Virus record (IMG/VR): IMGVR_UViG_3300000553_000048
Coordinates: 1-56,581 of that record
Length of the DNA stretch: 56,581 bases
Source of the DNA: a virus
Strand: one strand, 5' to 3'
Shown here one piece after another: positions 1,673 through 55,875 of the stretch. Made by a program: the position numbers and the translations under genes. Each line of letters opens with the position of its first letter. Position 1 is the stretch's first letter. The notes beneath the pieces were generated by a model. That model ran no database searches. It had not been told where the DNA came from and saw nothing but the letters and a program-made list of their open reading frames with translations.

Positions 1673-1689
1673 AGGCGCTCACGTATCAG

Positions 1690-19945: not shown

Positions 19946-21142
19946 ATGAGACAGTTAATTACAACCGAGAAAAAGCCTATAAAACTGTGGCTGTACGATA
20001 TTGAGGAAGGCGCGTTAAAACAGGCGCAGAATATAGCCAACTTGCCTTTTATTTTTAAGCATATTGCGTTGATGCCGGATGCACACCAAGGATACGGAAT
20101 GCCTATCGGTGGTGTAATGGCTACACGGGGAGTTGTCGTCCCGAATGCGGTGGGAGTGGATATAGGCTGCGGTATGATTGCCGCCCGGTCATCAATTCTG
20201 AATATCGAAACAGAAACTCTGAAAATGATAATGGGTGGCTCGCGGGAGAACAAGGGCGGGATCCGGGGCCATGTGCCGGTGGGGTTTTCTCACCAATCAA
20301 AACTCCAAGACGAGAAACTGATGCCGAATATCAGGGATTTTGGGGATCACGGAGAAATGCCTATTGTTGGGGAAGAATACCAAGCTGCTCTAAAACAATT
20401 AGGGACTCTCGGTGGCGGCAATCATTTTATCGAAATCCAAAAAGGTAGCGATGGTTTTGTGTGGGTCATGATCCATTCCGGCTCTCGAAACCTTGGATAT
20501 AAAGTCGCTAATCATTACAATCACCTGGCAAACGAGTTGAACAGAAAGTGGTTTTCCGAAGTTCCAATGTCTCACGAATTGGCTTTCCTTCCTCTTGACT
20601 CCAAGGAAGGGCATTCCTACTTACAGGAGATGAGGTATTGCGTTGAGTTTGCTCTTGCTAGCCGAAAACTGATGATGGAGCGCGTACAACAGTGCATAGC
20701 TGAAGTGGTGGGCGAAGTGGAGTTTGATGAAAGTATCAATATTGCACATAACTATGCCGCCATGGAACATCATTTTGGGGAGAATGTCCTTGTGCATCGA
20801 AAAGGGGCTACAAAAGCCGGTATGGGACAATTGGGGATTATCCCTGGTAGCCAAGGATCAGCGAGTTACATAGTCCGTGGTCTTGGAAATCCGGAGAGTT
20901 TTATGTCGTGCTCTCATGGAGCGGGGAGGAAAATGGGAAGAAAACAGGCCCAACGAGAATTGTCTTTAAAGGTGGAAAAGCAACGCCTTGACGAAATGGG
21001 AGTGATTCACAGTATTCGCACACCCAAAGACCTGGATGAGGCCGCAGGGGCTTATAAGGACATCCATGCGGTTATGGAGAACCAAAAGGATTTAGTATCC
21101 ATCGAAATTGAGTTAAAGCCTTTGGCGGTGGTAAAGGGGTAA
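19946..21142 (+). CDS. rtcB: RtcB RNA ligase
   Basis: This 398-residue protein is the usual length for RtcB, which joins 2',3'-cyclic phosphate and 5'-OH RNA ends using GTP and Mn2+. Metal-binding motifs are intact: MPDAHQGYGMPIGGV, GVDIGCGMIAA, GGGNHFIEI, HSGSRNLG, HNYAAMEHHF. The guanylylated His is in SCSHGAGR (H324). It starts after AAAGGAG and is the last gene before the late promoter. In a phage it may repair tRNAs cut by anticodon nucleases. No archease or RtcA gene is next to it. Confidence 0.93.
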   Translation: MRQLITTEKKPIKLWLYDIEEGALKQAQNIANLPFIFKHIALMPDAHQGYGMPIGGVMATRGVVVPNAVGVDIGCGMIAARSSILNIETETLKMIMGGSRENKGGIRGHVPVGFSHQSKLQDEKLMPNIRDFGDHGEMPIVGEEYQAALKQLGTLGGGNHFIEIQKGSDGFVWVMIHSGSRNLGYKVANHYNHLANELNRKWFSEVPMSHELAFLPLDSKEGHSYLQEMRYCVEFALASRKLMMERVQQCIAEVVGEVEFDESINIAHNYAAMEHHFGENVLVHRKGATKAGMGQLGIIPGSQGSASYIVRGLGNPESFMSCSHGAGRKMGRKQAQRELSLKVEKQRLDEMGVIHSIRTPKDLDEAAGAYKDIHAVMENQKDLVSIEIELKPLAVVKG

Positions 21143-34845: not shown

Positions 34846-35796
34846 ATGTCAAGTCCTGCAGCCACCGTTCTAACCCCGGCATCGATAACGACTGACCCGA
34901 ATTCCGCGGCTTCTGTCGCGACGGATCCGACCACGTCGACAGACCCGACGGCGGCCGGGGCGGTTTCGTCCACTACGGCTTTTCCGGGGGAAGATGCGCC
35001 GGCCAATGCAACTACCATCCCGACCAACGCGACGCAGGCCGGGACCTCAGCGACGAATGACGCGGCGTCTGCCAATCAATTTAGCAGCCTTATAAGTTCG
35101 GCTACGCCTCCGACCAACACGGCAACCACTCCTTCAAGCGCTTCGACAGTGGCAGGGCAGCTTAACTCTCTCTTGAGTTCTTCCTCTCCATATATTCAGA
35201 GCGCAAGGGCTTCCGGCACCCAGACCGCCAATGACCGCGGCTTGATCAATTCCAGCATCGACGCGGGTGCTGCCGAGACGGCGGCTATCAGTGCGGCAAC
35301 CCCGATTGCAGCGCAAGACGCGTCAACCAACGCGGCCCTGCAGTTGTCTGCACAGAATGCCAACCAGACCGAAACGGAAACCCAGTATGCGGCTCAGGTT
35401 CAGACAGCTGCCTCTGCCCAGGCTCTTTACAATTCGGCGACACTTCAGGAACAGGAAGGCGGTATCACTCAGCAGACAGCGGCTCAGGCTCAGGCTGCTA
35501 CGGCGGCGCTCCAAACACAGCTTACCCAGATGGGCGTGAATGTCTCCCTTGATCAGATCAATGCGGCCAGCCAGAGCGCTTATATCAATGCCGTCTCTCC
35601 GGTGATGACCGCCTATCAATCGGCATACGAAGCTATCCAGACTCAGCCAGACGCTCAGATGGACGCGGCGGCGAAGGCTACGGCCCTCGCTGGACTGCAG
35701 GCCACCTATCAGGCTCAGTTGACATCAATCAGCAATGTCTACGGCTACACGGTTGATTGGGGCGATACCGGCGCGGCAACGGCAGCGTCAGACTGA
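34846..35796 (+). CDS. Ala/Ser/Thr/Gln-rich virion protein (ejection-protein candidate), 316 aa
   Basis: The N-terminal 100 residues are disordered Ser/Thr/Pro/Asp repeats (ATDPTTSTDPTAAGAV). The remainder is an extended Ala/Gln helix (QTAAQAQAATAALQTQL). Such proteins in this position are usually internal virion or ejection proteins. The stop shares a base with the next start (TGATG). Confidence 0.55.
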   Translation: MSSPAATVLTPASITTDPNSAASVATDPTTSTDPTAAGAVSSTTAFPGEDAPANATTIPTNATQAGTSATNDAASANQFSSLISSATPPTNTATTPSSASTVAGQLNSLLSSSSPYIQSARASGTQTANDRGLINSSIDAGAAETAAISAATPIAAQDASTNAALQLSAQNANQTETETQYAAQVQTAASAQALYNSATLQEQEGGITQQTAAQAQAATAALQTQLTQMGVNVSLDQINAASQSAYINAVSPVMTAYQSAYEAIQTQPDAQMDAAAKATALAGLQATYQAQLTSISNVYGYTVDWGDTGAATAASD

Positions 35797-36248
35797 TGAA
35801 AAGGTGCACGATGGAAGACATTATGATCGTCAGCAACGTCCTGGACCACGATTCTGTGTTTATCCCGGTCAATGGCCGAGAGTGCAAAGAGCCGGGGGTA
35901 AGCGCGTATGCGGCTTTGAATCGTCCAGACATTCATGTGCTGATGCCGAACAATGGGACCGTTCATATCTTCGTTCCCTATAATGAGAATATCATGCACG
36001 TTCATATCGCCGTGCTTCCTGAGTTTCGCGGAAAGCTGGCGATAAAGACGTTGAAGGACTCCTTCACCTGGATCTTTGAGAATACCGGCGCAATCAAGAT
36101 TATCGGCTTTGAGGCTGCAAAAAATAAAGCGGCAATCCGTTTCATCGGAATGTTGGGCGTACAGAAAGAGGGCGTCTTGAAAAACTGCGACGGCCAGGGT
36201 GGCGACATGGTTGTTTATGGACATTGCAAACCTGAAAAAGAGGATTGA
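35796..36248 (+). CDS. GNAT-like N-acetyltransferase
   Basis: This 150-residue protein shows the GNAT core: MHVHIAVLPEFRGKLAIKTL (strand 4 and the start of the acetyl-CoA-binding helix), FENTGAIKIIGFEAAKNKAA and a final strand (MVVYGHCKPE). The canonical Q/RxxGxG/A loop is degenerate, so activity is uncertain. An in-frame ATG at 35811 is an alternative start. It is the first of three enzymes inside the structural operon. Confidence 0.65.
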   Translation: MKRCTMEDIMIVSNVLDHDSVFIPVNGRECKEPGVSAYAALNRPDIHVLMPNNGTVHIFVPYNENIMHVHIAVLPEFRGKLAIKTLKDSFTWIFENTGAIKIIGFEAAKNKAAIRFIGMLGVQKEGVLKNCDGQGGDMVVYGHCKPEKED

Positions 36249-36617
36249 ATGCAGACTCACGTATTCACGGATAAAGACTTTGCCTTATTCAAGGACACCG
36301 TTGAAAAATGGATAATTGACTTTGGAATAACTGGCTGGGGTGTTGAGATTCGCCATGAGCAGATAGGGGATAAGAGTATCGCTCAAGTTTCCACCAATCC
36401 AGTTAGTCGTAACGCTTTTTTTCGGTTAACCCTGCAAGTTGAATCAGACTATGCGCTTGAGAGGGATCCCGTTAAACTTGCTATCCATGAGGTTTTGCAT
36501 CTTCTCCTTGCCGACTTCGCGTGGACTATATCCACTTCTGGGGGTGAGTATTCCGATATATCGATGGGTCACGAACATTCCATTATCCATCGGCTGATAA
36601 AGTTGATCAAACCATGA
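36249..36617 (+). CDS. Small zincin-type metallopeptidase-like protein
   Basis: This 122-residue protein carries a HExxH motif (H80-E81-V-L-H84 in LAIHEVLHLLLADF) and a later GHEHSIIH that can give the third ligand. It is small for a peptidase and has no signal peptide, so it acts in the cytoplasm or in the virion. It begins directly after the GNAT stop and overlaps the radical SAM gene by ATGA. Target unknown; virion-protein maturation is a possibility. Confidence 0.7.
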   Translation: MQTHVFTDKDFALFKDTVEKWIIDFGITGWGVEIRHEQIGDKSIAQVSTNPVSRNAFFRLTLQVESDYALERDPVKLAIHEVLHLLLADFAWTISTSGGEYSDISMGHEHSIIHRLIKLIKP

Positions 36618-37576
36618 AAGTAGCCTTCACCTATTTCCCGCTGGCAATCAACTGGAATCACGGCGCTGCTGTGCTCTCTCAGCTTTGCAAGAACGCAGTC
36701 ATTGAAACTGAGCTATTCCCTTTGTATCCCGGCTTCACCGGGGAAGGATTTGACTATGTGTGTGTCAGCTTTGTCACCGTCCACGATTACCGGGCCGCTC
36801 AAGACATCTGCCGAGGTATTACCGTTCCTAAAGGAGCTGGCGGCGTATATGCCAGGAAGGGCGGAATCATCGAAGGGTTCAACAATGTCTGCCGCGGAGA
36901 GGGCGAACGTATTGTTGATTTTTTCCTCGAAGGTGACACGTCCGTCTTTGATAATGTCCTGCTTGACACGGATATAAACCCGCTTCCGGATTACACCGGC
37001 GTGACGGGATACGAGTTTGGCCGCGGGATACCATTTCTTGCAGGAAAAAAACTCATTCCGTACTCGCATAGTCGGGGATGTCCTCATCATTGCAGCTTCT
37101 GCGAGGTCAAAAACCTTCCGCAGGCCGTCAGGGTAAAGACCAACATCCGGGCCGACCTTTCCGAGCTATCAAAAAGATATCATCCGGATCTTTGGTATTT
37201 CACGGACGAGACCTTGCCGTATTACACAAAGGAATGGCGGGAACAATTACGGGGAAATTCTATCCCGTTTCTTTCTTTCATCCGGGCGGACATTAACCCG
37301 GCTCACTTGATCATGTTGATTGCCAACGGCTTGCATACGTGCGCCATGGGGATCGAGTCAGGGGATGAACAATACCGGAATACGATTTTGAATAAAGGCG
37401 TCACGGACAGACAGATATACCGGACAGTTGAGATGCTGGACCGTTACGGAGTCAACCGGATCATGCTGTATATGCGGCATACTCCCGGCGAGACCGACGC
37501 GCACAGAGACAAGACATTTGAGATGGTAGACCGTCTCGGGGGTTACCCGATGATTTTCGAATACGAGAGGCTTTGA
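36614..37576 (+). CDS. Radical SAM enzyme
   Basis: This 320-residue protein has the iron-sulfur motif CPHHCSFC (C156, C160, C163; CxxxCxxC). Downstream radical-SAM core segments follow: LWYFTDETLPYYT, NGLHTCAMGIESGDEQYR, YGVNRIMLYMRHTPGET. The N-terminal 150 residues look like a degenerate B12-binding Rossmann domain (FDYVCVSFVTVHDYRAAQD, GGVYARKGG), as in B12-type radical SAM proteins. No precursor peptide is evident beside it. Reading within tail/ejection genes suggests modification of a virion protein or a host target early in infection. Confidence 0.88.
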   Translation: MKVAFTYFPLAINWNHGAAVLSQLCKNAVIETELFPLYPGFTGEGFDYVCVSFVTVHDYRAAQDICRGITVPKGAGGVYARKGGIIEGFNNVCRGEGERIVDFFLEGDTSVFDNVLLDTDINPLPDYTGVTGYEFGRGIPFLAGKKLIPYSHSRGCPHHCSFCEVKNLPQAVRVKTNIRADLSELSKRYHPDLWYFTDETLPYYTKEWREQLRGNSIPFLSFIRADINPAHLIMLIANGLHTCAMGIESGDEQYRNTILNKGVTDRQIYRTVEMLDRYGVNRIMLYMRHTPGETDAHRDKTFEMVDRLGGYPMIFEYERL

Positions 37577-37577
37577 T

Positions 37578-38483
37578 ATGGGATGGACAGCAGCGGCAGC
37601 GATAGGGGAAGGTTTGGCTGCGATTGGTGCAGGAGCGGCAACGGCGGCAGGTGCTATAGGTATCACCGGTGCCGCAGCTGAGATAGTGGGCGACGTTGCA
37701 ATGGGTGCTGTAGTCGGCGCGGTAGTAGGCGGGGTAAAGTCAGCGGTCACCGGCGGCAATATCATGCAAGGGATTGAAAGCGGCGGTCTGATTGGAGGCG
37801 TTACCGCTGGCATAGGTGGAGGGGTGAGTGCTGCGAGTGCTGCTATTGGTGGTACAGCGGGGGCTACTGGCTCCGCAACATTGACAGCGGAAGGCCTGGA
37901 TAGTTCGACGGCAAGCACCCTTCAAAACACCATCGACGCCCCGGTAAACTTGGGGTCAGTTACTGACACAGGGATTTCAAATCCTGCCACAACAACCATA
38001 GGCGGAAGCGATTTCACCTCAGCCTCGACAGATGCGGCGAACTCCGGAAACTCCGGGCTTATAGCAAATCTGAATTCCCCAATAGGCACAGACACAACTT
38101 CCCCCATGGCAACATCAGGTGGCGCGGTTAATTCTCCAAATTCTGGCGGCTCTTCAAGCGCTGGCGGTATCAACCTTGGCCAGTCGATGGGCTCAGCAGC
38201 GGTCCAGGGAGCATTCGGGCTTGTGACCGGGCTTGCAAAGGGAGTTGCGGCAGCAGACGCCACACAGACACAAAATAAATGGAATGCCGCCCAGAAGGTT
38301 GTGACGCCTACAGGTGTTGCACCGGCACAGGCAAACATCCAGGGAAAGAATTACGTCGATACGGCTCAGCTTGACGCTACGGCTGCAAACCCTGAACTTA
38401 TGGGATCTGTTTACAAGAACCTCAACACAGCCCCCACAACGTCGCCCACAGGAACCATAGCATCTCCAGGAGCAGCATCATGA
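37578..38483 (+). CDS. Gly/Ala-rich internal virion protein, 301 aa
   Basis: The N-terminal 100 residues are small-residue hydrophobic helices (GLAAIGAGAATAAGAIGI, VAMGAVVGAVVGGVKSAV, GGVTAGIGGGVSAASAAIG) suited to membrane insertion. Then comes a Ser/Thr/Asn-rich disordered middle and a short C-terminal helix. It resembles podovirus ejection proteins such as T7 gp14 in character, not in sequence. Overlaps its neighbour by ATGA. Confidence 0.6.
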   Translation: MGWTAAAAIGEGLAAIGAGAATAAGAIGITGAAAEIVGDVAMGAVVGAVVGGVKSAVTGGNIMQGIESGGLIGGVTAGIGGGVSAASAAIGGTAGATGSATLTAEGLDSSTASTLQNTIDAPVNLGSVTDTGISNPATTTIGGSDFTSASTDAANSGNSGLIANLNSPIGTDTTSPMATSGGAVNSPNSGGSSSAGGINLGQSMGSAAVQGAFGLVTGLAKGVAAADATQTQNKWNAAQKVVTPTGVAPAQANIQGKNYVDTAQLDATAANPELMGSVYKNLNTAPTTSPTGTIASPGAAS

Positions 38484-39235
38484 GCGGATTAATAGGAAGT
38501 GTAAGCGGTAATCCTCAGAACGTCGGGCTCGGCGGTCCTTTGCCGTCCACGCCTGGCGCTCCAGCCCAAGCGCCACCCATGCCAGTTTCGAAAGGCGGTG
38601 GAGTGGTCCCGGCTGGCGGTCTTCCTCCTTCGCCTGCCCCGGCAGCAACAGGGCAGCAGGCTCCTACTCCGGCGCGGCAGCCTCTTCCTCCTGTCCATCC
38701 GAGCCAGCAGGGAATGAAGCAGGACCTTATGATGTACGTCAGCAAGGGGCTTGATATTATCTCTTCCCCTCAGACCAGAGCAAGTATTGTCACGATGTTA
38801 AAACACGGAGACCCTGTATCTGCCCTGGCGAACACGTTGCTTATTATTGTGCAGAAATTGGATTGCGCGTCCAGGGCAAAGGGGGTTGAGATTGCCGATG
38901 CCGTGAAGCTGTACGGAGCCCATGACCTTCTCGCGGAACTGCTCAAGGTGATGAGTGCGGCAGGTATCGCGCATCTTACCCCTGATCAACAGAATCTGGC
39001 TTTCAGTGTCATGGTTCAGGATTACATCAAGGCTGAGGTCGCGGCTGGCAGAATCAACCCGGCCAAGCTCCAACAGCAGAGCGAGGCGGCTGCAGCCCAG
39101 GTAAGCCCAAAGATGCGGCAGCAAGCACAGGAATCGGCACAAAGGATTCAGGCTACAGCTGTAGCATATCAGAAAGGTCTCAGTCGGCAGCAACCAAGCC
39201 AACAACCGGGAGCGCAACAAGGAGCACAGCAATAA
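38480..39235 (+). CDS. Internal virion protein with Pro-rich N-terminus, 251 aa
   Basis: Residues 1-75 are Pro/Gly/Ala-rich and disordered. The rest is a helical domain (QDLMMYVSKGLDIISSPQT, GDPVSALANTLLIIVQKLD, LTPDQQNLAFSVMVQDYI), and the end is Gln-rich (QQPSQQPGAQQGAQQ). Likely a second ejection protein; coupled to its neighbours at both ends. Confidence 0.55.
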   Translation: MSGLIGSVSGNPQNVGLGGPLPSTPGAPAQAPPMPVSKGGGVVPAGGLPPSPAPAATGQQAPTPARQPLPPVHPSQQGMKQDLMMYVSKGLDIISSPQTRASIVTMLKHGDPVSALANTLLIIVQKLDCASRAKGVEIADAVKLYGAHDLLAELLKVMSAAGIAHLTPDQQNLAFSVMVQDYIKAEVAAGRINPAKLQQQSEAAAAQVSPKMRQQAQESAQRIQATAVAYQKGLSRQQPSQQPGAQQGAQQ

Positions 39236-40584
39236 TGGGACTACTCACGCAGGCATTGGCCGGTGCGGCTGAAGGTGGCGCTTCGGCTGAAGGGGCGGCA
39301 ATCACCACCCAGAACCAGCAAAACTTTCAGATGATGCTGGAAAATTCCAGGAATCAGGCACAGCAAAACCTTGTTCAGCTTTCATCTACCTTGCAGGCGC
39401 AGAATGCGTCGGCTCTGTCGGCCCAGAATGCTCAGCAGAATCTGAGCGCGCAGACAGTAGGCGTTGACAATAATGGCATCCCCATTACGCGGTCTGATTA
39501 CAGCAATATGACAGCGGACCAGAAAGGGGATGTTCAGAGCCCGCAGGCGTATGGAGCGCAGACCAATCTTGACTATACTCCTATCGGTATGAAGTCAGAC
39601 GGGTCTCCTCTCTTGCCTTCTGACCTGACTCCGGACGGGCCTCCCTCTGGCTCGATTCTCAATATCCAAATGCAGCAGGCCATGAATGCGGCGAATATCC
39701 AACATCTGAATTCTGAGACGTTCAAGAATATTCAGACCGGAAACTGGATGGATAATCGATACAGCGGTGGCTGGAAGGGCCAGTCTGCGGAGCAGATGCG
39801 CGCGGCTGGCATGTCTGAAATTGAGATTGCAAAGGCACTCCAACAGCAACAGAGTGGAGGAGGGGCAAATGGCGGCAGGCCGACGTCAGAGCAGATAAAA
39901 AGCGTCAACGATCTCAGGGACCAGGCTGACACCGCTATTTCAGCGGGACAGATTCAGAAGGGTAAAGATATCCTCGCTGAACGTAACCAGATGGCCGCTC
40001 AAATCGGGATGCCGTCCCTTGAATATGTCCAGGATACTCCGGCGACCACGAAGAATAAGGGACTTATTGACAGTACCCAGGTCCCGGATAAACCGGAAAC
40101 CGGCCATATCAGGCTTATGCAGAATCAGCCTGGACAGAACAACAGCAATCTTAATCAGTCTCAGCGGCAAGTTGAAAGCGGGAATAAAGATTTTTCTGTA
40201 AATGGGCAGCCGGTTACCTCGTCACAGGGCGCCAGGTATGCGATGCAGGTTATGCCGAATACTGCTGCTAATCCCGGATTTGGCGTCCGCCCGGCAGATC
40301 CGAAGATTCTTGCTTCTGGTAACCAGCAGGCTATTTCCGCTGAATACAACAGGGTCGGGCAGGATTACATGAACGCTCTTCTCCAAAAATATAACGGGAA
40401 TCTTCCTGTCGCTCTTGCCGCTTACAATCAGGGTCCAGGCGCAACCGATACGTGGCTGAATAATTCCAAGGGGGATTTGAATAAATTGCCTCCCGAAACG
40501 CAGACCTATCTTGTGAAAGTATTGGGGATGATGAATCAAAGCAAGTCTTCATCCGCAAACTCATCTTCGCCGAACCAAGGATAA
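39235..40584 (+). CDS. Virion-associated lytic transglycosylase (SLT domain)
   Basis: This 449-residue protein has a Gln-rich N-terminal 300 residues. An SLT domain lies at about residues 305-430: catalytic Glu314 in RQVESGN, then GARYAMQVMPNTAANPGFG and GNLPVALAAYNQGPG. It would locally open peptidoglycan as DNA enters, like the transglycosylase domain of T7 gp16. It directly precedes the giant polyvalent gene. Confidence 0.88.
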   Translation: MGLLTQALAGAAEGGASAEGAAITTQNQQNFQMMLENSRNQAQQNLVQLSSTLQAQNASALSAQNAQQNLSAQTVGVDNNGIPITRSDYSNMTADQKGDVQSPQAYGAQTNLDYTPIGMKSDGSPLLPSDLTPDGPPSGSILNIQMQQAMNAANIQHLNSETFKNIQTGNWMDNRYSGGWKGQSAEQMRAAGMSEIEIAKALQQQQSGGGANGGRPTSEQIKSVNDLRDQADTAISAGQIQKGKDILAERNQMAAQIGMPSLEYVQDTPATTKNKGLIDSTQVPDKPETGHIRLMQNQPGQNNSNLNQSQRQVESGNKDFSVNGQPVTSSQGARYAMQVMPNTAANPGFGVRPADPKILASGNQQAISAEYNRVGQDYMNALLQKYNGNLPVALAAYNQGPGATDTWLNNSKGDLNKLPPETQTYLVKVLGMMNQSKSSSANSSSPNQG

Positions 40585-40585: not shown

Positions 40586-43500
40586 ATGGATCTTAACGCT
40601 GCATTTGGATCTCAGCCAAGCCCGTTCACCCCTCCTGCTTCTTCTGCGGGACAGCAGGACCAGGGGAAATCTGCGTCAATTGACCTTAATGCAGCTTTTG
40701 GTTCCCAGCCGGACCCTCTCGGAGGAAATAAAACTAATAGTCCCTCTGGTCCTCCCGGTCCCGTCGACCCGTCTTCTGATGACGTGAAGTATACCGGCGC
40801 TCCTGACCCTGGCATGACAGACCAAAATCAAGACAACCATTATTACAACGAATACGTTCAGAAGCCTGTTTCTTCATTTATTGGTTCTCTGGCAAAGTTG
40901 TATGAGATGTTGGGAGTCATGCCGACCGCTGCCGCAGTGGACAAGCTGACCGGCAACAATCAGGCAGTAGATACGGCAGGCCAAGCCTACGATACTGCTG
41001 CTCAATTCAAGGAAGATCAGCGTCCAGGCTCTGACGTCGGAGCACCCGGCCGTTTTGTCCGTGGGGTTGAAGATGTGGCACCTCTGGCGCTCCTGGGTCC
41101 GGAAGGATTTATTGCAGACGCCGCGGCTGAGGGTGGAGGCGATTCTCTCCGGTCCGGGCATGACCTTACGACCGCTGAATTGCAAATGGTGAAGGATGCG
41201 GGTTTTGCCGCCCTGTTCTCCAATGTTCCTATGGCTGCAAATTCCCTACTCGGATCCGTCGTGAAAGGTGCAGCTGTCAATACAGGTCTTTCTATTGCTG
41301 ATCAATATGCGCAGAAACTTCTGCTTAATTCCCGGGGGTACGGACAAGAGGCGTCTCAAATCAACCCGCTTTCCGCTGAAAATCTCGGTACCGGCGTGGG
41401 AATGGGCGTTATCTTCGGCGGTCACCAGTTTCTTGGAATGCAGAATGCAGCGAAAAGTCTTTCGAGTGAAATCAATACCTCAATCGACAACGGCGACATT
41501 ACGCATGACCAGGGCGTCCAGACCGTCCAGCAATCCGGATTACCCAGAGTTCTGCAACGGCCTATTATCGATTCCATTCTTCAGAAAAAGATTCTCGATG
41601 CCGGTAATATTGATGATGCCATAAGCGCGGCCAACGATGTGACAAATGCCGCTCCTGGCCCCGGCCCTGTTTTTACGGATGAGGAAAAAGCCGGGCACCT
41701 GGCGGAAGCTGCCCAGCGTCTTGATTTTCTGGAAAACAATCCTTCCCCGGATACCGACAACGAGCTCCAATTCCTTCGGATGAATTCCGAGAATCATGAC
41801 GCGCTCGTAGACAGATATAACCCTCAGCCTTCCGTGGCCGCTGAGTCGTTGCCTTGGATCTCTCAGGCAAACACCACGCCTCTTGATCTCTCTGGCGGCG
41901 ATATTGGTATTATTCACTCGCCGGTATCCAGTGACACCCCTTTCACTATGCGAAGACCGGACGATGTTTATTCTCCATACTCTCCGGACCTGGCGCAACA
42001 GCTGAACACGAAACTGATAGCTGACACTCCCTGGATTCACAAGACCGGCATGGAACAGGTTGACCCGGATACTGCGGCATGGTTGCAGCATCGGGTGAAT
42101 GCTCTTGATTATGCGCAGAAGCAGAACGAGCAACAGGCCCAATCTCCGGATGCCCAGACCCGCCTTGTCGCCTCTGTCCAGCGCGTAAACCTGCTTAATC
42201 AGATGTCTGACCTTCTCGTCAAGCAGTACCATGAAGGCCAGATGAACGGCTGGATCAACGATACCGCCGGGCAGAATATCACCGACAACAGCGGCCAAGA
42301 TCTGGGGTGGGTTCAAAAATCCAAACCTTTTGACGATCTCTCCGGGCGGCGAGACGGTGAGGGATGGGCTAATTTTCTAAGACGTCGCCAGACCGGCACT
42401 ATCCTTCCTGATGATCTTGAGTCGAAACTGAACCTTCTTCAGCAGCAAATGAAAGAAGGGGAGACCGGCTCCAGGTGGCAGAACGAAGACTTTGTTGACG
42501 CAAACGGCCAGACCGTGCCGGGTGATTGGGATGGCGTCAAGTCAACGAATCCCGACTGGTTAAAATCCGGCGTCTTGAAAGATGCCGGTAAGGATGGCAT
42601 CAACACTGTTATCGATAAGTCTCGGGCTGGCCTTCCGCTCACCGGCAAGCAAGCAGATGTATGGGCTGCGGTCAAGCAGGCCGCTGACGATGCTTACAAT
42701 AGCGACCCGCATATTGCAGCCGCAAACGAAGCTCAGCGGCTTCATGAGTCCGGTATCGATATCCACGCCCCTGAATCAATCCCTGTCGGCAATCTTTCTG
42801 AAGGCGACCAGGTTGTTGTTCAGGGCAAGGATGGTATGCCGGATCTTGTCACGCATAAGGGCTATGATGACCAGGGGCAGGCTATCCTGCAGGATGGTGT
42901 TACGATTCACGCTGACCCTTGGGATATGGTCGACTCGATGGGGGTAAAGCCTGCCGGCGTAAGTGTTAATGAAACGCCGGATGGTGAGACAAAACCTGTC
43001 TTGAGTCTCACGGATGAGACGCAAGCGTCCGAATATGGTAAGGCTAATACCGTATTTACTCAAGATGCTGCCGACAAAGCGAGAGCTCTGCTTCGGTCAA
43101 AATTAGGACAGCTCAACAGCGGCATCGATCCCGAATTAATGCAGGCCGGTATTACCATAGCCGGGTACCACGTAGAAGCTGGCGCCCGAAAATTCACCGA
43201 CTACGCCAAGGCTATGGTGGGAGATTTCGGAGAGAAGATAAAACCTTTCCTTCGTTCATTTTATGAGGCCGTCCGTCATTATCCTGGTATGGAAGATGCG
43301 GGATTGAGCGACCCTAAAGAAATAGAGGGTACCGACCTTGCTTCTATATCTCAAGGTCAATATAATGAATTGACACCACAGCAAAACCAAGACGGAGGTT
43401 TCTCAAATGCTGACATCAATAACACCGGAAATCTGGCACGAGATCGGGGCGACTCAGCAGTTGCGGACACGCTGGGCCAAGATGGCCTTCGTAATGGGAG

Positions 43501-46500
43501 CGGACCAGATGAACGCCTTGATCGACAAGGAATATCAGGAGATGATGGCCAGGGGTATATCTCACGAAGTGGCCTACGCATATCTGGACGTGAAGCCTCT
43601 GCTCTTGGAGAACGTAGCAATCTCTCGATACATCGTGCAGACGGACAATCACTCCCTGCGGAGCGCGTTGCCGGAAGTAGTCACAACGACGGAGGCGACC
43701 CGGTTGGCCTCTCGGGAAAATCCCTTCCTTACGAGGCAGCAGTTAAGCCAGCTACAGGGATTGCTGGCGGCCGACTTGGATTAACAGAAAAGATACTCCA
43801 ACAGAAAAAAGCCAATACTGGTAAGGTTGAAGGAAATAGCCTTGCCGATATCGCAAAAAACCTTCCTCTCTTACATCCTCACCAGCAAGAAGACGTTAAG
43901 TTTGCAGAAAATCGCTTTGCAAACCCTGACGGTCACGGTGTCATGTTTACCAACGGCACAGGCACAGGAAAGACCTTCTCTGCCCTCGGAATAATGAAGC
44001 GCATGGAGATGAAAGGGAAAGGTGAAATCCTTGTCCTTGTTCCGAACGATACCATTGCAAATGATTGGATTAAGGCAGGGAACCACTTTGACCTTGGGAT
44101 TACACGACTGAAGAACACAAAAGACAATGGCGAAAAAGGCGTCAGCCTGACTACATACGCAAACTTTGGATCGAACGACTCTCTCGCCTATCGCAAATGG
44201 GATCTTGTTGTTGCCGATGAAGCTCAACTTTTGGGAAGTAATGCGTCAGGCGATGCCACAAAGGCGCTCACCACCTTTAGGGCAATTACAATGCACCCGG
44301 AAGGTGCTTATGCGCGGCATACAATGCTGCACAGCGAGGAAATAGGACAACTCTCCTCTCTTGTGCGAGAAAAAGAAGCTGCCAAGGCAACTTTTCAGCA
44401 GTCTACTGATCCGGCTGAAAAATCAGTTGCCGAGAAGACAATAGCCAGGCTTGATCCTGCAATCAAAGAATTATCTTTTTCTCTCAGAGAAAAGCAATCT
44501 CAGGTCAAGCAAGAGGTCAAAGACGCCCAGCCTGACGGCAGATCGAAAGCCGTATTCCTTTCAGCAACTCCGTTTGCCTACGAAAAGAGTACCGACCTCG
44601 GGAATGGATACTTATTTCACTATCCGGTTGAGACGAATTCTGGCGGATATAACAGCGGATCCCCTCGCGATAGGTTTATGATGGAGCATTTCGGATACCG
44701 CATGAGATATAACAAACTCACTGCGCCCGAGGCAGAAGTCGACAGTGGGTTGATGCAACGTCAGTTCAATTCGTACCTAAAAAAACAAGGAGTATTGTCC
44801 GGTAGAATGCTGGATGTTCCTTTCGATTATGACCGGAAATTCTCCCTGATAGATTCATCTATCGGCAGACTGATAGATGACGGTATGGAGTTCTTGAACG
44901 AGAACCCTAAGTATCACGCGCTGAGCGCGATTCTGCATGACAAGTTTGATTACCTAAAGCGCCGGTTCCTTCTCGAGGCAATCAAGGCCGACCGAATCGC
45001 ACCTGAAATTCAGTTGCATCTTAACGCTGGTCGAAAGGTTGTGGTCTTCCATGACTACATCAAGGGTGGTGGCTTCAACCCCTTTGACTTCAGTGACCAT
45101 AGGTTTAACAGCGAGAGCGTTAATTATGAAGACGGTGACGGAGAGAAACAAAGCGTGCAGATTGGGCATCTTGTCCATGATTTTGGAGTAGAGCGCCCCG
45201 ACCTTGTCGGCCTGCCGATTGCAAACCTGCCAACACCGCTTGAATCAATGAGGAGGGCCTTTCCGGGTTTGCTTGAGGTGAACGGCCAGACGGTTTCAAA
45301 GCAACAAGTTCGCAACAATATAGCCACATTCAACGACGACATGAGCGGACCACAGGTGATGATGGTCCAGTCCGATAAGGAAGCCGGGTGGTCAGGGCAC
45401 GACACCACCGGCAAGTTTCAGAGGGTCCTGTTTAATCTCGGACTCCCGACCAGGCCGACCAGGGCCATACAGCAGGAAGGCCGGATATATCGAGACGGGC
45501 AGGCGTCTGACGCTCTTATCCGTTACGTGAACACCGGGACCAACTGGGAACGATGGGCCTTCGCCTCTACTATCGCGCATCGGGCGTCTACGGCTGAGAA
45601 TCTGGCTATGGGTGAAACGGCAAGGGCTCTCAAGGATGCCTTTATCGAGGGCTTTGAAGATTCAGGGTCTTTTCCCCCTGGTTATCCTGGCGAAGGTACA
45701 GGAGGTAAGGAACGTGACGCTGCGGCCAATGCTGCCCTGTCCGACTGGGACCGTGCAATCTCTCTCTATTTTTCTCAGCAGAAAAGAAATTCCCGGAACA
45801 AATCGGCAGAAGGGAAAGACTATTTTGCTACGCCTGAGCCTCTGGGAATGAAAATGGTTGAGTGGGCAAACCTGCGCGGCAGCGAGAAAGCACTTGAGCC
45901 TTCAGCTGGACATGGGGCTATTGCGCGATGGTTTCCGGAAAATACCGAAAATACCGTCGTCGAGCCGTCTCTTGAATTGGCCAGCCGTTTGGCTATGGTC
46001 ACAGATGCAAAACTGGTTAACGCCCCGTTTGAAAATCTCAATATCGTCAACAAGTTTGATGGCATTGTGATGAACCCCCCGTTCGGAACTGCTGGTAAGA
46101 CAGCTATGGATCATATCGAGAAGGCTGCGGGGCATCTGCGGGACGGAGGCCGTATCGTTGCCCTGATTCCGGCTGGTCCTTCTATGGATAAGCGGGTGGA
46201 TAATTTCCTTTATGGTACGGACGCAAAAGGGAAAATGATCAACCCAGATCTTCACCTTATTTCTTCGTATGATCTGCCGAGCTCTGTGTTTGAACGTGCC
46301 GGCACAAAGGTTTCCTGCCGTGTCTTGGTAATCGATAAACAATCTGATCCTGATATCGCGCAACGTCTCCAACAGACCGCCCCGAGGGATTACACCGGAC
46401 TTTCGATAAAAGAGTTCTTTGACCGGATTGAGAATAGCCAGGTCCCGGACCGGATCTCTCCGGTTGCAAATGAGCCATTACCGGAACAGCCAAAAGTCTA

Positions 46501-49500
46501 CACTCCGGACGAACTTATTCCGCCGGGAGAGAAGGGCGCGCTTCCATCTTCAAACCATGACATTGTCGAACATACGACGATGAAAGGGAAGGTTCTTACA
46601 GGAATTGTCCGGACGGATTTAACGAAAGATCAGGCGAAGGAAATCGACCCTTACACATTCAAGAAGGATGGAGGGTTCTTTATCCGAGAAAAGTACCTTG
46701 ATAATCCTGAAACGAAATACTCGATCGGCGATAATGCACCCGTCGAAACCCACACGCCAGAATCCTTTCACCAGGCAGCCACCGACGCCCTGAACGCTGA
46801 GCATGGCGGCCTCGGTCAGTTGATGCGGCATATCAATGTCATTCACGATGCTGATATTTCGGATGAGGTTAGGAAAGGGCAAGAAGGTATTCAAGGTTTC
46901 GTCCACGACGGCAAAGCCAACATCGTAGCCGATAATATCCCCAAGGATTGGACAGACCAGCAGATGACCGGTCTGATCAAGCACGAAGTCGCCGACCATA
47001 TTCTCAACCTTGGCCACGCGGACGCCGAGTATCAGAGTATTGAACGTTCGATGGATCTTATGCGCCGGGCTGGAAATCCAGTTGTCGTTGAGGCGTACAG
47101 TAGGGTCCCAGAGGGGACCAGGCCACAAGACGTCAACCGGGAGGCGATTGCTTACCTCATCCAGCATGCGCCCGAGCAGTCTATCGTGCAACGATTCGTT
47201 ACATGGTTCCGGGGAAAACTCCGTGCCCTGTCTCAGGCTATTCCGGGCTTTGATCGCCTGCGGGTTGCCACCTGGGCAAATAGGCTCACTCCTGACGACC
47301 TGATCGGGATGGCACATGATGCTTTAGTCCGGGCTCCTGCGGTCCTGGATAGAAAAGCCCTTGCCAATCAGCAGACCGGCAATATAGGATTAGGTAAAGG
47401 AGAAAATAACCATGGCAATGACACCGGAAGAGAACGAGGCCAATATCCAGGAAATCCTGCGGACCTGTCCAGGGATGACCAGGGAAAAGATAGCGGAGTG
47501 GGACAAGTCGGGCAAACCGATGACCAAAGAAACCTTGCAGCAGCACAGGGAAGCGGGAGTGAAGCGCCCGGTTCGTCCAAGTTTACAGGATGGTTTGGTA
47601 AGTCAGCACTAACTGACGAATCTGGAAACCCTCTTATCTATACTCATAAATCCAAGACTTTCGGGATGGATGACAATCCTGACTCTTGGATTTTCAATCC
47701 TGATAAATCTGGTCAACAGACCGGCTCTCCTATGTCTGGGATTGGGAGTTTTTTCGCAAGAAAAGAATCTCGTCCCATGGAACCGAATGTAAAATCCAGC
47801 GAATCAAAAGACTTCTATCTCCGTCTTGAGCATCCTTTGGAGATGTCCTCTGCCGACTTACCGCGATTTAATAACGTGGAAGAGGCAAAGGCCTGGGCCA
47901 AAAGGCAGCATGATCTTAACGGATACGACGGAGTCATGTTCACCGACCATGACGATGTGGTTATCTTTCACCATAATCAGGCGAAGTCTGCGGACTTCAA
48001 TAACGGTGAATATTCCAGGACCAACAACGACACTCGATATTCCATAGCAGACGGCAAGGGATTCCGGAAGGACGATGAAGACGAAAAGCCTGTTGCCGGT
48101 CCGGATGATATTCGAAAGCCCCTGACACAGCGTATCAACGACGCCAGCTCTCGGCTTGGTCAGTTTACCGATAAATCCCGGTATATGCAGGAGGATATCA
48201 AGCCAGCTGTCAAGGAAGCTGTCACCGGGCTGAAACTGGTATATCAAGGATTACAGAGCCTGGTTCATCCGACAGGCGTCAGTGAGGCTGCGGCAAAGGC
48301 AGGTAGCGCCCTGAATGCCGCTATGGGGGCGAGGAATCGCGGCGGCGATGTCTTCCGGGCGAATCTCGACAAGGCATATTCGGACCAGAAGGAATACACG
48401 TCAAAACTGGCAAAGATCATGGACCTGTCGACAACGTCGTCGGGGCTCCTGGCCGACAACCTTTTTAATAAGATGGACGTCCAGGGTCAGCACGATTTCA
48501 TTACCCGGATGGAGAAGGGCCAGCAGCAGCCGACAAAGCAGATGCAGGATATTGCGGATGTCATTCGTAAGATGTTCGACGCCAAGGTTAAGCAGGTCCA
48601 GGACCTGGGGACCGGGGCTTTGCAGAGCGTGATTGAAAACTATTTTCCGCACATCTGGGAAGATAAACTGAACGATCACCAGATACAGACGACTCTTTCA
48701 AAGACCAAGCTTGAGGGATCTAAGGCCTTCACTAAACAGAGGGTATTTGAAGATATTCAAGCTGGTCTTGATGCCGGGTTTAAACTGGTTTCCGACAATC
48801 CGCTCGACCTTGTTTTCCTGAAAATGCACGAAATGGATAAGTACCTGGTCGCGCATTCCGCCCTGCAGGAGATGTCAAAGTATGGCGTCGTGCGGATGAT
48901 TAAGGCGGGTGCTGATGTCCCAAAAGGTTTCAAAGTAATCGACGGGCCTTTCGGAGTCGTCACCAAGAAGGACGGATCCGCTTACCGGTATGCAGCGACT
49001 GACGATGTCCATCAGGTGTTTCATAATTACCTGTCTCAGAGCTGGTATAACAATAAGTATTTCGGCACAGCGTACACGGCATACATGGGAGCGGCAAACC
49101 GGCTTAATATGTTCCAGCTTGGCGTCGGTTCAATGTTCCATGTCGGCTTTGTCACCAATGACGCCGTTGTCGAGAATTGCGCTCTTGGGTTGAAGTCATT
49201 CACTGAGGGGAAGTTCACCAAATCAGCCAAGTATTTCATGGAGGCTCCGACGGCGCCAATAAAAAACTGGCGACTTGGCGGTAAGATCCTCGATGCGTGG
49301 GAAGGGCAAGGGCAATTCATGCCGGCCGTAATCAAAATGCTCGAACTGTCTGGGGCAAAGAATGGCCTAGATAATCGGTTCCGGATTGATTCAACGCAAA
49401 AGATGCAACAGGCCTTTGCAAATGGGAAACTCCTAAAGGGAATCTTTCATGCTCCGGCGGCGATCGTTGCCCAGATGACCAGACCGATAATGGAAGGGCT

Positions 49501-50677
49501 TGTTCCTCGTATGAAGTTTGCCGCATTCGCCGAGATGGCAAACCATTGGATGGAGACAAACCCGAACGCGACGCACGAAGAACTGCAGCAACAGGCTCAG
49601 CAGATTTGGAATAGGATTGACTCCCGGCTCGGGCAGGTCAATTATGATCGGCTCTATATCAATAATTCTGCCAAAAGCGTGATACAGGCCCTTGTCCGTG
49701 CTCCTGGGTGGACTGGTGGCACCATGCTTGAAGTTGGTGGTGCTGTTACCGATACCGGAAGTGCTGTGCTTGGTCTCCTGAAAGGGAATAAGCCGGTGAT
49801 GACTGACCGTATGGCTTACACGGCATCTCTATTACTCTGTAACGCCATTGCGACCGGGTTGCTCACCTATCTTTTCACTGGCGAAGCTCCGCACGGGAAA
49901 GACTTCATTGCTTTCCGGACCGGCGGTGTGGACGAATACGGAAATCCGGAACGCTGGACGCTGCCGACATACGCAAAAGACATCTACGCCTACTCTCAGC
50001 ATCCATTTGATACGTTGCTAAATAAGACTCACCCGATAATCTCAATGGGAAAGGATCTTATAAAAAACAGCGACTATTACGGGGTGGAGATCTGGCACCA
50101 GGACGACAACCCGCTTACCCAGTTGGCGCAGGCCAGCGGATATGTTGCCAAACAGTTTGTTCCCTTCTGGATGCGTGGCGCTGCCAAGTCGGCAGAGCGT
50201 GGTGACAGCCTTGCAGCTATGGCGGCTCCCCTTGTTGGCATCATGCCAGCCACAGGCGAACTGACCAAGACGGCGGCCCAGTCTGACATGAGCAACATCT
50301 ACAAGCAAACTGCGGCATTTGATAAAACCAGGACGCAAGCACAGTTTGACAAGTCAAACTTGCGGCGTGACATCATCCGCAAGCTGCGAATGGGCGACGT
50401 ATCGGGGAATGGTGATATCAGCCAGGCTTTGGCTGCCGGGACGCTGTCGCAGAAGGATGTGGTCGGTATCCGTAGAGACAGTATGGTAACTCCTGGCGAA
50501 ACTCAGTTCAACCGGCTGTCCTTGCCCCAAGCAATAACGGTTTACGAAGACGCGACGGACGAAGAAAAGGCAAAGTTCAAGCCTATCCTGATCCGCAAGG
50601 GGCAGTCTATCATGGCTATTCCTGTCAGTGAACGCGGCAACATTCAGCAACGGTACAACCAGGCTATCAGCCAGTAA
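40586..50677 (+). CDS. Giant phage polyvalent protein: helicase, DNA methyltransferase, zincin, ART-like, large C-terminal region
   Basis: One unbroken 3363-codon ORF. Two short repeats (DLNAAFGSQP) open it. A superfamily 2 helicase follows at about residues 1080-1700 (GTGTGKT 1124-1130, DEAQ 1211-1214, SATPF about 1326, QQEGRIYRDGQ from 1629). An adenine-type methyltransferase lies at about 1745-1930 (EPSAGHG 1771-1777, NPPFG 1830-1834). A zincin-like motif HEVADH starts at 2133. An ADP-ribosyltransferase-like domain lies at about 2330-2480 (KFTGWFGKSALTDESG, YDGVMFTDHDDVVIF). The C-terminal 850 residues are mixed helical with one hydrophobic segment (LLLCNAIATGLLTYLF). Polyvalent proteins are thought to be ejected with the DNA to protect it and attack the host. 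Two extra genes are nested in its linkers. Confidence 0.9.
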   Translation: MDLNAAFGSQPSPFTPPASSAGQQDQGKSASIDLNAAFGSQPDPLGGNKTNSPSGPPGPVDPSSDDVKYTGAPDPGMTDQNQDNHYYNEYVQKPVSSFIGSLAKLYEMLGVMPTAAAVDKLTGNNQAVDTAGQAYDTAAQFKEDQRPGSDVGAPGRFVRGVEDVAPLALLGPEGFIADAAAEGGGDSLRSGHDLTTAELQMVKDAGFAALFSNVPMAANSLLGSVVKGAAVNTGLSIADQYAQKLLLNSRGYGQEASQINPLSAENLGTGVGMGVIFGGHQFLGMQNAAKSLSSEINTSIDNGDITHDQGVQTVQQSGLPRVLQRPIIDSILQKKILDAGNIDDAISAANDVTNAAPGPGPVFTDEEKAGHLAEAAQRLDFLENNPSPDTDNELQFLRMNSENHDALVDRYNPQPSVAAESLPWISQANTTPLDLSGGDIGIIHSPVSSDTPFTMRRPDDVYSPYSPDLAQQLNTKLIADTPWIHKTGMEQVDPDTAAWLQHRVNALDYAQKQNEQQAQSPDAQTRLVASVQRVNLLNQMSDLLVKQYHEGQMNGWINDTAGQNITDNSGQDLGWVQKSKPFDDLSGRRDGEGWANFLRRRQTGTILPDDLESKLNLLQQQMKEGETGSRWQNEDFVDANGQTVPGDWDGVKSTNPDWLKSGVLKDAGKDGINTVIDKSRAGLPLTGKQADVWAAVKQAADDAYNSDPHIAAANEAQRLHESGIDIHAPESIPVGNLSEGDQVVVQGKDGMPDLVTHKGYDDQGQAILQDGVTIHADPWDMVDSMGVKPAGVSVNETPDGETKPVLSLTDETQASEYGKANTVFTQDAADKARALLRSKLGQLNSGIDPELMQAGITIAGYHVEAGARKFTDYAKAMVGDFGEKIKPFLRSFYEAVRHYPGMEDAGLSDPKEIEGTDLASISQGQYNELTPQQNQDGGFSNADINNTGNLARDRGDSAVADTLGQDGLRNGSGPDERLDRQGISGDDGQGYISRSGLRISGREASALGERSNLSIHRADGQSLPAERVAGSSHNDGGDPVGLSGKSLPYEAAVKPATGIAGGRLGLTEKILQQKKANTGKVEGNSLADIAKNLPLLHPHQQEDVKFAENRFANPDGHGVMFTNGTGTGKTFSALGIMKRMEMKGKGEILVLVPNDTIANDWIKAGNHFDLGITRLKNTKDNGEKGVSLTTYANFGSNDSLAYRKWDLVVADEAQLLGSNASGDATKALTTFRAITMHPEGAYARHTMLHSEEIGQLSSLVREKEAAKATFQQSTDPAEKSVAEKTIARLDPAIKELSFSLREKQSQVKQEVKDAQPDGRSKAVFLSATPFAYEKSTDLGNGYLFHYPVETNSGGYNSGSPRDRFMMEHFGYRMRYNKLTAPEAEVDSGLMQRQFNSYLKKQGVLSGRMLDVPFDYDRKFSLIDSSIGRLIDDGMEFLNENPKYHALSAILHDKFDYLKRRFLLEAIKADRIAPEIQLHLNAGRKVVVFHDYIKGGGFNPFDFSDHRFNSESVNYEDGDGEKQSVQIGHLVHDFGVERPDLVGLPIANLPTPLESMRRAFPGLLEVNGQTVSKQQVRNNIATFNDDMSGPQVMMVQSDKEAGWSGHDTTGKFQRVLFNLGLPTRPTRAIQQEGRIYRDGQASDALIRYVNTGTNWERWAFASTIAHRASTAENLAMGETARALKDAFIEGFEDSGSFPPGYPGEGTGGKERDAAANAALSDWDRAISLYFSQQKRNSRNKSAEGKDYFATPEPLGMKMVEWANLRGSEKALEPSAGHGAIARWFPENTENTVVEPSLELASRLAMVTDAKLVNAPFENLNIVNKFDGIVMNPPFGTAGKTAMDHIEKAAGHLRDGGRIVALIPAGPSMDKRVDNFLYGTDAKGKMINPDLHLISSYDLPSSVFERAGTKVSCRVLVIDKQSDPDIAQRLQQTAPRDYTGLSIKEFFDRIENSQVPDRISPVANEPLPEQPKVYTPDELIPPGEKGALPSSNHDIVEHTTMKGKVLTGIVRTDLTKDQAKEIDPYTFKKDGGFFIREKYLDNPETKYSIGDNAPVETHTPESFHQAATDALNAEHGGLGQLMRHINVIHDADISDEVRKGQEGIQGFVHDGKANIVADNIPKDWTDQQMTGLIKHEVADHILNLGHADAEYQSIERSMDLMRRAGNPVVVEAYSRVPEGTRPQDVNREAIAYLIQHAPEQSIVQRFVTWFRGKLRALSQAIPGFDRLRVATWANRLTPDDLIGMAHDALVRAPAVLDRKALANQQTGNIGLGKGENNHGNDTGRERGQYPGNPADLSRDDQGKDSGVGQVGQTDDQRNLAAAQGSGSEAPGSSKFTGWFGKSALTDESGNPLIYTHKSKTFGMDDNPDSWIFNPDKSGQQTGSPMSGIGSFFARKESRPMEPNVKSSESKDFYLRLEHPLEMSSADLPRFNNVEEAKAWAKRQHDLNGYDGVMFTDHDDVVIFHHNQAKSADFNNGEYSRTNNDTRYSIADGKGFRKDDEDEKPVAGPDDIRKPLTQRINDASSRLGQFTDKSRYMQEDIKPAVKEAVTGLKLVYQGLQSLVHPTGVSEAAAKAGSALNAAMGARNRGGDVFRANLDKAYSDQKEYTSKLAKIMDLSTTSSGLLADNLFNKMDVQGQHDFITRMEKGQQQPTKQMQDIADVIRKMFDAKVKQVQDLGTGALQSVIENYFPHIWEDKLNDHQIQTTLSKTKLEGSKAFTKQRVFEDIQAGLDAGFKLVSDNPLDLVFLKMHEMDKYLVAHSALQEMSKYGVVRMIKAGADVPKGFKVIDGPFGVVTKKDGSAYRYAATDDVHQVFHNYLSQSWYNNKYFGTAYTAYMGAANRLNMFQLGVGSMFHVGFVTNDAVVENCALGLKSFTEGKFTKSAKYFMEAPTAPIKNWRLGGKILDAWEGQGQFMPAVIKMLELSGAKNGLDNRFRIDSTQKMQQAFANGKLLKGIFHAPAAIVAQMTRPIMEGLVPRMKFAAFAEMANHWMETNPNATHEELQQQAQQIWNRIDSRLGQVNYDRLYINNSAKSVIQALVRAPGWTGGTMLEVGGAVTDTGSAVLGLLKGNKPVMTDRMAYTASLLLCNAIATGLLTYLFTGEAPHGKDFIAFRTGGVDEYGNPERWTLPTYAKDIYAYSQHPFDTLLNKTHPIISMGKDLIKNSDYYGVEIWHQDDNPLTQLAQASGYVAKQFVPFWMRGAAKSAERGDSLAAMAAPLVGIMPATGELTKTAAQSDMSNIYKQTAAFDKTRTQAQFDKSNLRRDIIRKLRMGDVSGNGDISQALAAGTLSQKDVVGIRRDSMVTPGETQFNRLSLPQAITVYEDATDEEKAKFKPILIRKGQSIMAIPVSERGNIQQRYNQAISQ
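43407..43784 (+). CDS. Nested gene A inside the polyvalent gene (+1 frame), 125 aa
   Basis: ATG 43407 is preceded by GGAGG with an 8-base spacing. The product looks like a folded helical protein (TPEIWHEIGATQQLRTRWAK, GADQMNALIDKEYQEMMAR, SHEVAYAYLDVKPLLLENV, TRQQLSQLQGLLAADLD). Codons end mostly in G or C, as in ordinary genes of this phage. In the same stretch the giant protein (residues 941-1067) is an unstructured Gly/Asp/Arg/Ser-rich linker. I take this frame as a real gene and the giant frame here as overprinted linker. Function unknown. Confidence 0.72.
   Translation: MLTSITPEIWHEIGATQQLRTRWAKMAFVMGADQMNALIDKEYQEMMARGISHEVAYAYLDVKPLLLENVAISRYIVQTDNHSLRSALPEVVTTTEATRLASRENPFLTRQQLSQLQGLLAADLD
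47412..47612 (+). CDS. Nested gene B inside the polyvalent gene (+1 frame), 66 aa
   Basis: ATG 47412 follows AAAGGAG at good distance. The product is helical and charged (MTPEENEANIQEILRTCPGM, TREKIAEWDKSGKPMTKETL, QQHREAGVKRPVRP). The giant protein over this stretch (about residues 2276-2342) reads as Gly/Asn/Asp/Gln-rich linker between the zincin and ART-like domains. The last 15 or so codons overlap the start of the ART-like domain and may be a run-on tail. Function unknown. Confidence 0.65.
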   Translation: MAMTPEENEANIQEILRTCPGMTREKIAEWDKSGKPMTKETLQQHREAGVKRPVRPSLQDGLVSQH

Positions 50678-54349: not shown

Positions 54350-54808
54350 ATGAGCTTTTTAAAAGCAATGCAGTACGGCCAGGTCATAGAGAATCCGGCC
54401 ACATACAAGAACCTGCAGAACTCCATCAACCTCTTGGTTGCCCTGCTCAGTATTGGGGGACAAGTTCTGCACTCTTATGGTTTTACCGTCAACCTGTCAG
54501 AAGCGCATGCGGTCACGATAGCAACCGCATTGGCGGTCTCCTTTTGTGCTCTCAACGCCCTTTTTACGGTGATTACATCTGACGATATGGGTATCAAAAT
54601 TCGTGCCGCGCAACCGTCTCCCTCTCAGGTAATGGCGGAACAGCTTCCCCGGCTTATCAAGGCCCTTGAACTGATGCTTGCACAGCCTCCTGCTTTCCCG
54701 GCTCCTGTAACTGAAGTGAAGGTTGCTGTTCAGACCGCGCCGGACGTTGCCGCCCAAAAGGCTCAGGATCCAGCAGCGGCTGCTGCAACGGGAGGAGGTG
54801 CTGCGTGA
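54350..54808 (+). CDS. Holin-like membrane protein, 152 aa
   Basis: ATG 54350 has GGAG just upstream; an in-frame ATG at 54338 lacks a site. Two hydrophobic segments (INLLVALLSIGGQVLHSYGF, VTIATALAVSFCALNALFTV) lie in the first 90 residues, with an Ala/Gln/Pro-rich cytoplasmic tail. It would fit a two-span holin, though longer than most. Overlaps the lipase by 4 bases. Confidence 0.55.
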   Translation: MSFLKAMQYGQVIENPATYKNLQNSINLLVALLSIGGQVLHSYGFTVNLSEAHAVTIATALAVSFCALNALFTVITSDDMGIKIRAAQPSPSQVMAEQLPRLIKALELMLAQPPAFPAPVTEVKVAVQTAPDVAAQKAQDPAAAAATGGGAA

Positions 54809-55751: not shown

Positions 55752-55838
55752 ATGCCCGTGAAAGTCTGCCCCGAATGCGGTCATCGTTATACGCAGGGAT
55801 CGCATTGTCCTGTTTGTGGGTACCCGTGCGAAGATTGA
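55752..55838 (+). CDS. Zinc-ribbon microprotein, 28 aa
   Basis: GGAG precedes ATG 55752. The peptide has two CxxC pairs (VCPECGHRYT and HCPVCGYPC), enough for one structural zinc. It lies two bases after the upstream stop. Its role in the lysis cassette is unknown. Confidence 0.55.
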   Translation: MPVKVCPECGHRYTQGSHCPVCGYPCED

Positions 55839-55854
55839 TCTTTTACAAGAGAAT

Positions 55855-55870
55855 GTAGCCAGGAGGCTAC
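55855..55870 (+). promoter_or_regulatory. Hairpin that sequesters the endolysin ribosome binding site
   Basis: GTAGCC (55855-55860) and GGCTAC (55865-55870) form a perfect 6-bp stem with loop AGGA. The AGGAGG Shine-Dalgarno site is split between loop and stem. It could delay or limit endolysin translation. Confidence 0.55.
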
Positions 55871-55875
55871 GAAAT

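Follow-up and report, generated by a model that had tools for sequence, protein, structure and literature searches.

A radical SAM (rSAM) enzyme and a GNAT-fold protein encoded in the late operon of a short-tailed, integrase-encoding phage are best explained as a mobile two-gene pair that occupies the “gene 14 slot” and that would act on the injection machinery during assembly, a reading to which a probability of about one half is assigned. The slot lies after the genes for the hub and needle and ahead of those for the ejection proteins, and is held by gp14 in P22 and by gp13 in T7. The two genes are homologous, neighbouring (with a small zincin-like gene between them in the phage studied here), and keep one order and one slot across three phages; a pair of these phages has nothing else detectable in common in the late operons. 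That they form a real functional unit is highly probable. The term “window” is used below for the whole stretch of DNA that was analysed, which is an entire viral record of 56,581 bases.

Gene order in the late operon

The virion genes of the window include those for a P22-type capsid protein (phrog_1357), an SU10-type adaptor and an HMO-2011-like portal. The gene that anchors the slot (34846..35796, on the + strand, as are all of the genes described in this section) lies directly after a gp10-like gene, as gp26 does in P22, and has homologues at 56 loci (iterative HMM) with the conserved motif TVAGQ..SLL..SSP...AR..G..TAN.RGL.NSSI; the label “needle” is given to it from its position only. It is followed by the gene for a GNAT-fold protein of the P22 gp14 (DUF2824) type (35796..36248; 150 aa), which is the first gene of the conserved pair, by an accessory gene for a zincin-like protein (36249..36617; 122 aa), which lies at the junction between the members of the pair, and by the gene for the rSAM enzyme (36614..37576; 320 aa; PF04055, 8.7e-12). 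The next gene (37578..38483) encodes a Gly/Ala-rich protein with a glycine-zipper stretch, which matches no Pfam or PHROG profile and is assigned as a small ejection protein from its composition and its position, which is that of P22 gp7 and T7 gp14; its equivalents come after the slot in the relatives as well. A second ejection-type protein (38480..39235), also assigned from position, is 45.7% identical to its equivalent in L001, and an internal virion protein with an SLT transglycosylase domain (39235..40584; PF01464, 8.1e-10; phrog_19855, 2.1e-25) completes the series.

The junctions between these genes are tight. The needle-like gene and the GNAT gene overlap by 1 nt (TGATG), the stop codon of the GNAT gene abuts the start codon of the zincin-like gene (TGAATG), the zincin-like and rSAM genes overlap in ATGA, and the rSAM gene, which ends at 37576, is followed by the first ejection-type gene at 37578. 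The sequence-only reading that preceded the present analysis had described three tightly coupled enzyme genes among the structural genes, and the open reading frames and their abutting or overlapping junctions are confirmed here, as is their placement between the needle-position gene and the ejection-type genes.

Downstream in the same late operon (40586-50677) lies the gene for a 3363-aa polyvalent-type protein that matches a helicase (ResIII) and, weakly, ART-PolyVal, Strawberry-notch helicase C and methyltransferase domains, and that has a counterpart of 38-45% identity in the L003/L179 contig. The polyvalent or packaged phage enzymes described by Iyer et al. 2017 (PMC5512222) include protein-modifying GNATs and zincins which are made with the late genes and possibly injected; the window resembles these systems in its late-operon GNAT and zincin-like genes and in its 3363-aa polyvalent-type protein, and differs from them in that the GNAT, zincin-like and rSAM proteins are separate small proteins. 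The main text of that paper does not mention radical SAM.

The GNAT and the gene 14 slot

In P22, the hub gene (gp10) is followed by the genes for the needle (gp26), gp14 and the ejection proteins gp7, gp20 and gp16, with a 1-base overlap between the genes for gp26 and gp14 (PMC4837284). The GNAT of the window resembles P22 gp14 (DUF2824, “head assembly protein”) in its Pfam family, in its similar length, in its place in the slot between gp26 and gp7 and in the 1-nt overlap of its gene with the needle gene. It scores 28.3 bits against DUF2824 (PF11039), above the cut-off of 25, and its homologues in L165 (24.3) and L001 (18.3) score below this cut-off. It also matches phrog_651 (“head morphogenesis”), and profile comparison with P22 gp14 using hhalign gives a probability of 82 and an E-value of 1.1e-5, with a similarity of 24% identity that is confined to about 70 residues. 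An AF2 model built from 21 slot GNATs (pLDDT 88.4, pTM 0.82) has GNATs as its best matches among solved structures (Foldseek, TM 0.65-0.73, E 6.5e-8), and its fold matches in BFVD include proteins named “Internal virion protein A”. T7 gp13, which is internal virion protein A (PF11090), occupies an analogous position ahead of the ejection proteins gp14-gp16, but it belongs to a different Pfam family and gives no significant profile match to the GNAT (hhalign probability 1.4), so that the likeness to T7 lies in position and in the names of these fold-library matches.

The GNAT sits between the needle gene and the first ejection-protein gene in the window and in L001, and occupies the same place in L165, where the needle is not recognised. 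As far as profile and position indicate, a GNAT alone at this site is ordinary, and is the expected occupant of the P22 gp14 slot. P22 differs from the window in having neither an rSAM gene nor a zincin gene beside gene 14.

Relatives of the phage were gathered via their capsid and hub proteins, and the slot was read between the needle gene and the Gly/Ala-rich ejection-type gene. Most relatives carry one GNAT in the slot, usually one that is unrelated to the GNAT of the window; among the 41 slot proteins scanned, 15 match Acetyltransf_1 and 21 match phrog_1249. Five slot proteins, including those of L028, L080 and L082, match the cupin-like family phrog_12032. The cupin gene of L080 is followed within the slot by a separate Asp/Asn beta-hydroxylase gene (L080:17420-18299), and in L082 the cupin and the hydroxylase are fused (L082:19547-20461). 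In some relatives the slot holds a short, unassigned protein, and a few slots are empty. Comparison of these neighbourhoods shows that the contents of the slot have been swapped between relatives, and since both GNAT with rSAM and cupin with hydroxylase are seen there, occupancy by two enzymes probably arose at least twice.

The radical SAM enzyme

The rSAM protein scores 46 bits against PF04055 (cut-off 29.5), and its CxxxCxxC motif (C156/C160/C163) is intact and is conserved in three of three homologues; the motifs G[IV]ESGDE and PGET are kept as well. The radical SAM core is preceded by a Rossmann-like N-terminal part of about 145 residues which contains the motif GEGE. Most of its best NCBIfam matches, among them PhpK, BzaD, HpnJ and RiPP methyltransferases, fall in families of B12-binding rSAMs or close to them, and no family is matched at its own cut-off; the top score is 40 bits against a cut-off of 600, below the level of a characterised equivalog. 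The alignment to TIGR04013 covers residues 49-171, the B12-binding profile PF02310 is matched in the L165 protein only, at 13.3 bits, below curated significance, and the nearest solved structure by sequence is AprD4. An AF2 model from the three-sequence alignment is poor, with a pLDDT of 42; the order of secondary-structure elements would be compatible with a partial TIM-barrel.

The enzyme shares with the B12-binding (class B) rSAMs (PhpK, TIGR04013, HpnJ, the RiPP C-methyltransferases and AprD4) the three conserved motifs and the Rossmann-like N-terminal part with GEGE, and it differs from them in its length of merely 320 aa, in meeting no curated cut-off, in its location in a phage late operon and in its link to a GNAT. 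Its N-terminal part weakly resembles a shortened B12-binding Rossmann domain, and the odds that the enzyme binds B12 are judged to be even. Methylation is common among the reactions of the families that lie nearest to it. The idea of a commonplace rSAM of auxiliary metabolism, for example QueE or NrdG, was considered and rejected, since no significant match to these families is found.

Synonymous sites are saturated across the homologues of the rSAM gene, while dN is 0.26-0.43, which means that the genes are under selection; these substitution rates show strong purifying selection on the rSAM. The conservation of both the rSAM and the GNAT is not a matter of chance, because both have been kept at saturated synonymous divergence.

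Co-occurrence of the GNAT and rSAM genes

At the sensitivity reached, two homologues of the rSAM were found in 2.9 million viral contigs, one in L001/L003 with 70% identity and one in L165/L178 with 54%. All three rSAM-bearing contigs also carry the GNAT, which lies directly 5' of the rSAM gene in L001 and L165, where in each case the end of the GNAT gene, with its stop codon, shares 10 nt with the beginning of the rSAM gene (AAGCCATGCGC[A/G]TAGC) and ejection-type genes follow directly downstream. The sequence-only reading had linked all three enzymes, and a search for their co-occurrence in other phages bears it out for the GNAT and the rSAM, which are together in three of three rSAM contigs, and not for the zincin, which is absent from the other two. 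The three instances of the pair all lie on incomplete or unclassified viral contigs.

The two other phages stand in different relations to the window. L003 belongs to the same phage group, with a capsid protein that is 73% identical; the 70% identity of its rSAM is close to this value, and its remaining late proteins are mostly 35-55% identical. L178 is a phage with P22-type structural genes, and when it is compared with 17 late proteins of the window only the GNAT (39.7%, 1.8e-28) and the rSAM (53.5%, 6.6e-115) find a match; the two genes thus behave like a mobile module, passed from one structural operon to another that is unrelated to it. Conversely, the relatives L011, L012 and L019 have capsid proteins that are 72-75% identical to that of the window, yet their GNAT is a different one (12-15% identical) and their records, which are partial, contain no rSAM; given such close capsids, the difference in the GNAT implies that the two genes came in, or were exchanged, together. 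The rSAM accompanies the DUF2824-like GNAT subfamily only, and not the other GNATs found in the slot. The presence of both genes in all three contigs, one of which has unrelated structural genes, is what supports a two-enzyme unit.

The suggestion that an rSAM is unusual in a phage structural operon holds up: the PF04055 cut-off is exceeded in 2 of 49 related viral records, both of which bear the pair, and in none of the 47 others. No homologue of the window's rSAM was found among 50,697 phage records at E 1e-5 or in two scans of species genomes, and when the signature GGVYARKGG was searched for as a DNA pattern, the sole hits were the two contigs already known. Matches on plasmids are distant, and the best of them lies outside any phage operon. 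This rarity is in part a limit of method, since the searches for related loci rely on short exact peptide patterns. Searches of the open-licence literature on radical SAM with phage virions, podoviruses or phage-encoded cobalamin gave no description of an rSAM enzyme encoded among the structural genes of a phage; an rSAM protein adjoins queuosine genes in alphaproteobacterial phages (PMC10783043).

The zincin-like gene

The zincin-like protein carries HEVLH at residues 80-84 and matches no family in Pfam, PHROG or NCBIfam, and hence no peptidase profile. Its nearest relative in phage records (MW202879) is 27% identical and keeps HExLH and a downstream EH, the third ligand being assigned by eye; its gene lies next to an endolysin gene. 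The distant relative at L173:4968-5324, in a Manatee Spring phage, has genes for a holin and an M15 endolysin as neighbours, and suggests that small phage proteins with HExLH make up a family that is not yet curated.

The gene is missing from both of the other loci that bear the pair (L001 and L165), and an HMM built from the two sequences recovers nothing from 2.2 Mb of related sequence beyond its own two seeds, those of the window and of MW202879. It sits exactly at the GNAT-rSAM junction that overlaps in L001 and L165, and is best read as an optional gene that was probably inserted later, in this phage alone. Its third-position GC is somewhat below that of the adjacent genes and hints weakly at a recent arrival; roughly one in ten late-gene windows is equally low.

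Possible function of the pair and alternative explanations

The three-gene cassette is rejected, given the absence of the zincin from the other loci that bear the pair. The earlier proposal that all three enzymes form a single pathway of post-translational modification and trimming draws on their tight coupling in the window, and could appeal to the trimming of the P22 ejection protein gp7 by a host protease, which is OpdA according to a note in the P22 record (Conlin et al. 1992, as cited in PMC8402733). Such a pathway is not supported, because the zincin fails to co-occur with the GNAT and the rSAM in the two other pair loci and in the related sequence searched, and its somewhat low third-position GC, with the reservation given above, points the same way; this proposal is considered very improbable. 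By analogy, the zincin could itself trim an ejection protein in this phage, and may stand in for OpdA, the protease by which the host cuts P22 gp7.

A different alternative retains the pair and places its target elsewhere. The two genes could be moron-like cargo in the late operon, host-directed or metabolic, which makes or modifies a small molecule, a lipid, an envelope component or a host protein and leaves the virion proteins untouched. The three phages have no virion sequence in common; the families that best match the rSAM act on small molecules, lipids and peptides; and rSAM genes of the B12 type occur in metabolic clusters of other phages, as in Streptomyces phage SF3, where one lies beside thymidylate kinase and NUDIX genes. 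Cargo of this kind is a real possibility, with the odds somewhat against it, since the pair keeps to one slot in all three phages, whereas the location of a moron usually varies, and since the rSAM is in translational overlap with a GNAT of the gp14 type, a type to which head morphogenesis is ascribed in the annotation of the P22 relative. The GNAT, for its part, might lack catalytic activity and serve assembly as a structural or chaperone-like factor, with the rSAM an independent enzyme of unrelated late role that is merely co-inherited. Its acyl-CoA loop (Q/RxxGxG/A) is degenerate, reading RGK-[LVE]-AI, with the Arg retained and both later glycine positions changed, and the substitution of cupins for GNATs in the slot suggests a binding role rather than a catalytic one. 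Against this alternative, the rSAM occurs only with the DUF2824-like subfamily and has moved jointly with its GNAT between unrelated operons; it is considered somewhat unlikely.

The preferred reading, a mobile pair in the gene 14 slot that would act late in infection on a part of the injection machinery or on some other target of the GNAT, would work as follows. The two proteins would be made during virion assembly; the GNAT would keep a gp14-like role and act on ejection or head proteins, and the rSAM would add a radical modification of the B12-rSAM type, such as methylation, to the target of the GNAT. Action in virion assembly is slightly favoured over action on the host. The foremost candidate for the target would be an ejection protein that has to assemble into a trans-envelope channel, and this assignment is tentative. 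Apart from the GNAT and the rSAM, no protein sequence is common to the window, L001/L003 and L165/L178. This is the strongest argument against one virion substrate conserved in all of them, except in the case that the target is recognised by its structure or through the GNAT; a search for a candidate substrate likewise found no six-residue peptide outside the rSAM that is common to all three phages. The degenerate loop of the GNAT also counts against the preferred reading, and no experiment was found that demonstrates enzymatic activity for gp14-type GNATs. The fullest form of the proposal, in which a cobalamin-type rSAM and a partner acyltransferase modify an ejection protein during assembly and have spread as a two-gene module, with cupin and hydroxylase as a second, independent version, is rather doubtful. 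We know of no modification of a virion protein by enzymes of this kind.

The role of proteins of the P22 gp14 and T7 gp13 type is poorly understood. A lineage in which a gp14-type protein is coupled to an oxygen-sensitive radical enzyme, and in which both move between unrelated capsids, would mean that the slot may act by chemistry and not solely as a chaperone. With the parallel of the cupin and hydroxylase, chemical modification of an ejection protein before packaging becomes a directly testable question.

Other features of the window

A segment of about 465 bases occurs near both ends of the window (1215-1680 and 56055-56520) with about 87% identity between the copies, one of which lies within an open reading frame (55816-56355) and the other of which adjoins the integrase gene (1690-2757, - strand). 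A protein with a Lipase_3 domain (Pfam, 1e-14) is encoded near the right end (54805-55407), and an RtcB-type RNA ligase (phrog_1075, 2.6e-116) is encoded at 19946-21142. In the early region (8918-9073), a 30-base word occurs three times (8918, 8981 and 9044) at a spacing of 63 bases, forming a short tandem repeat.
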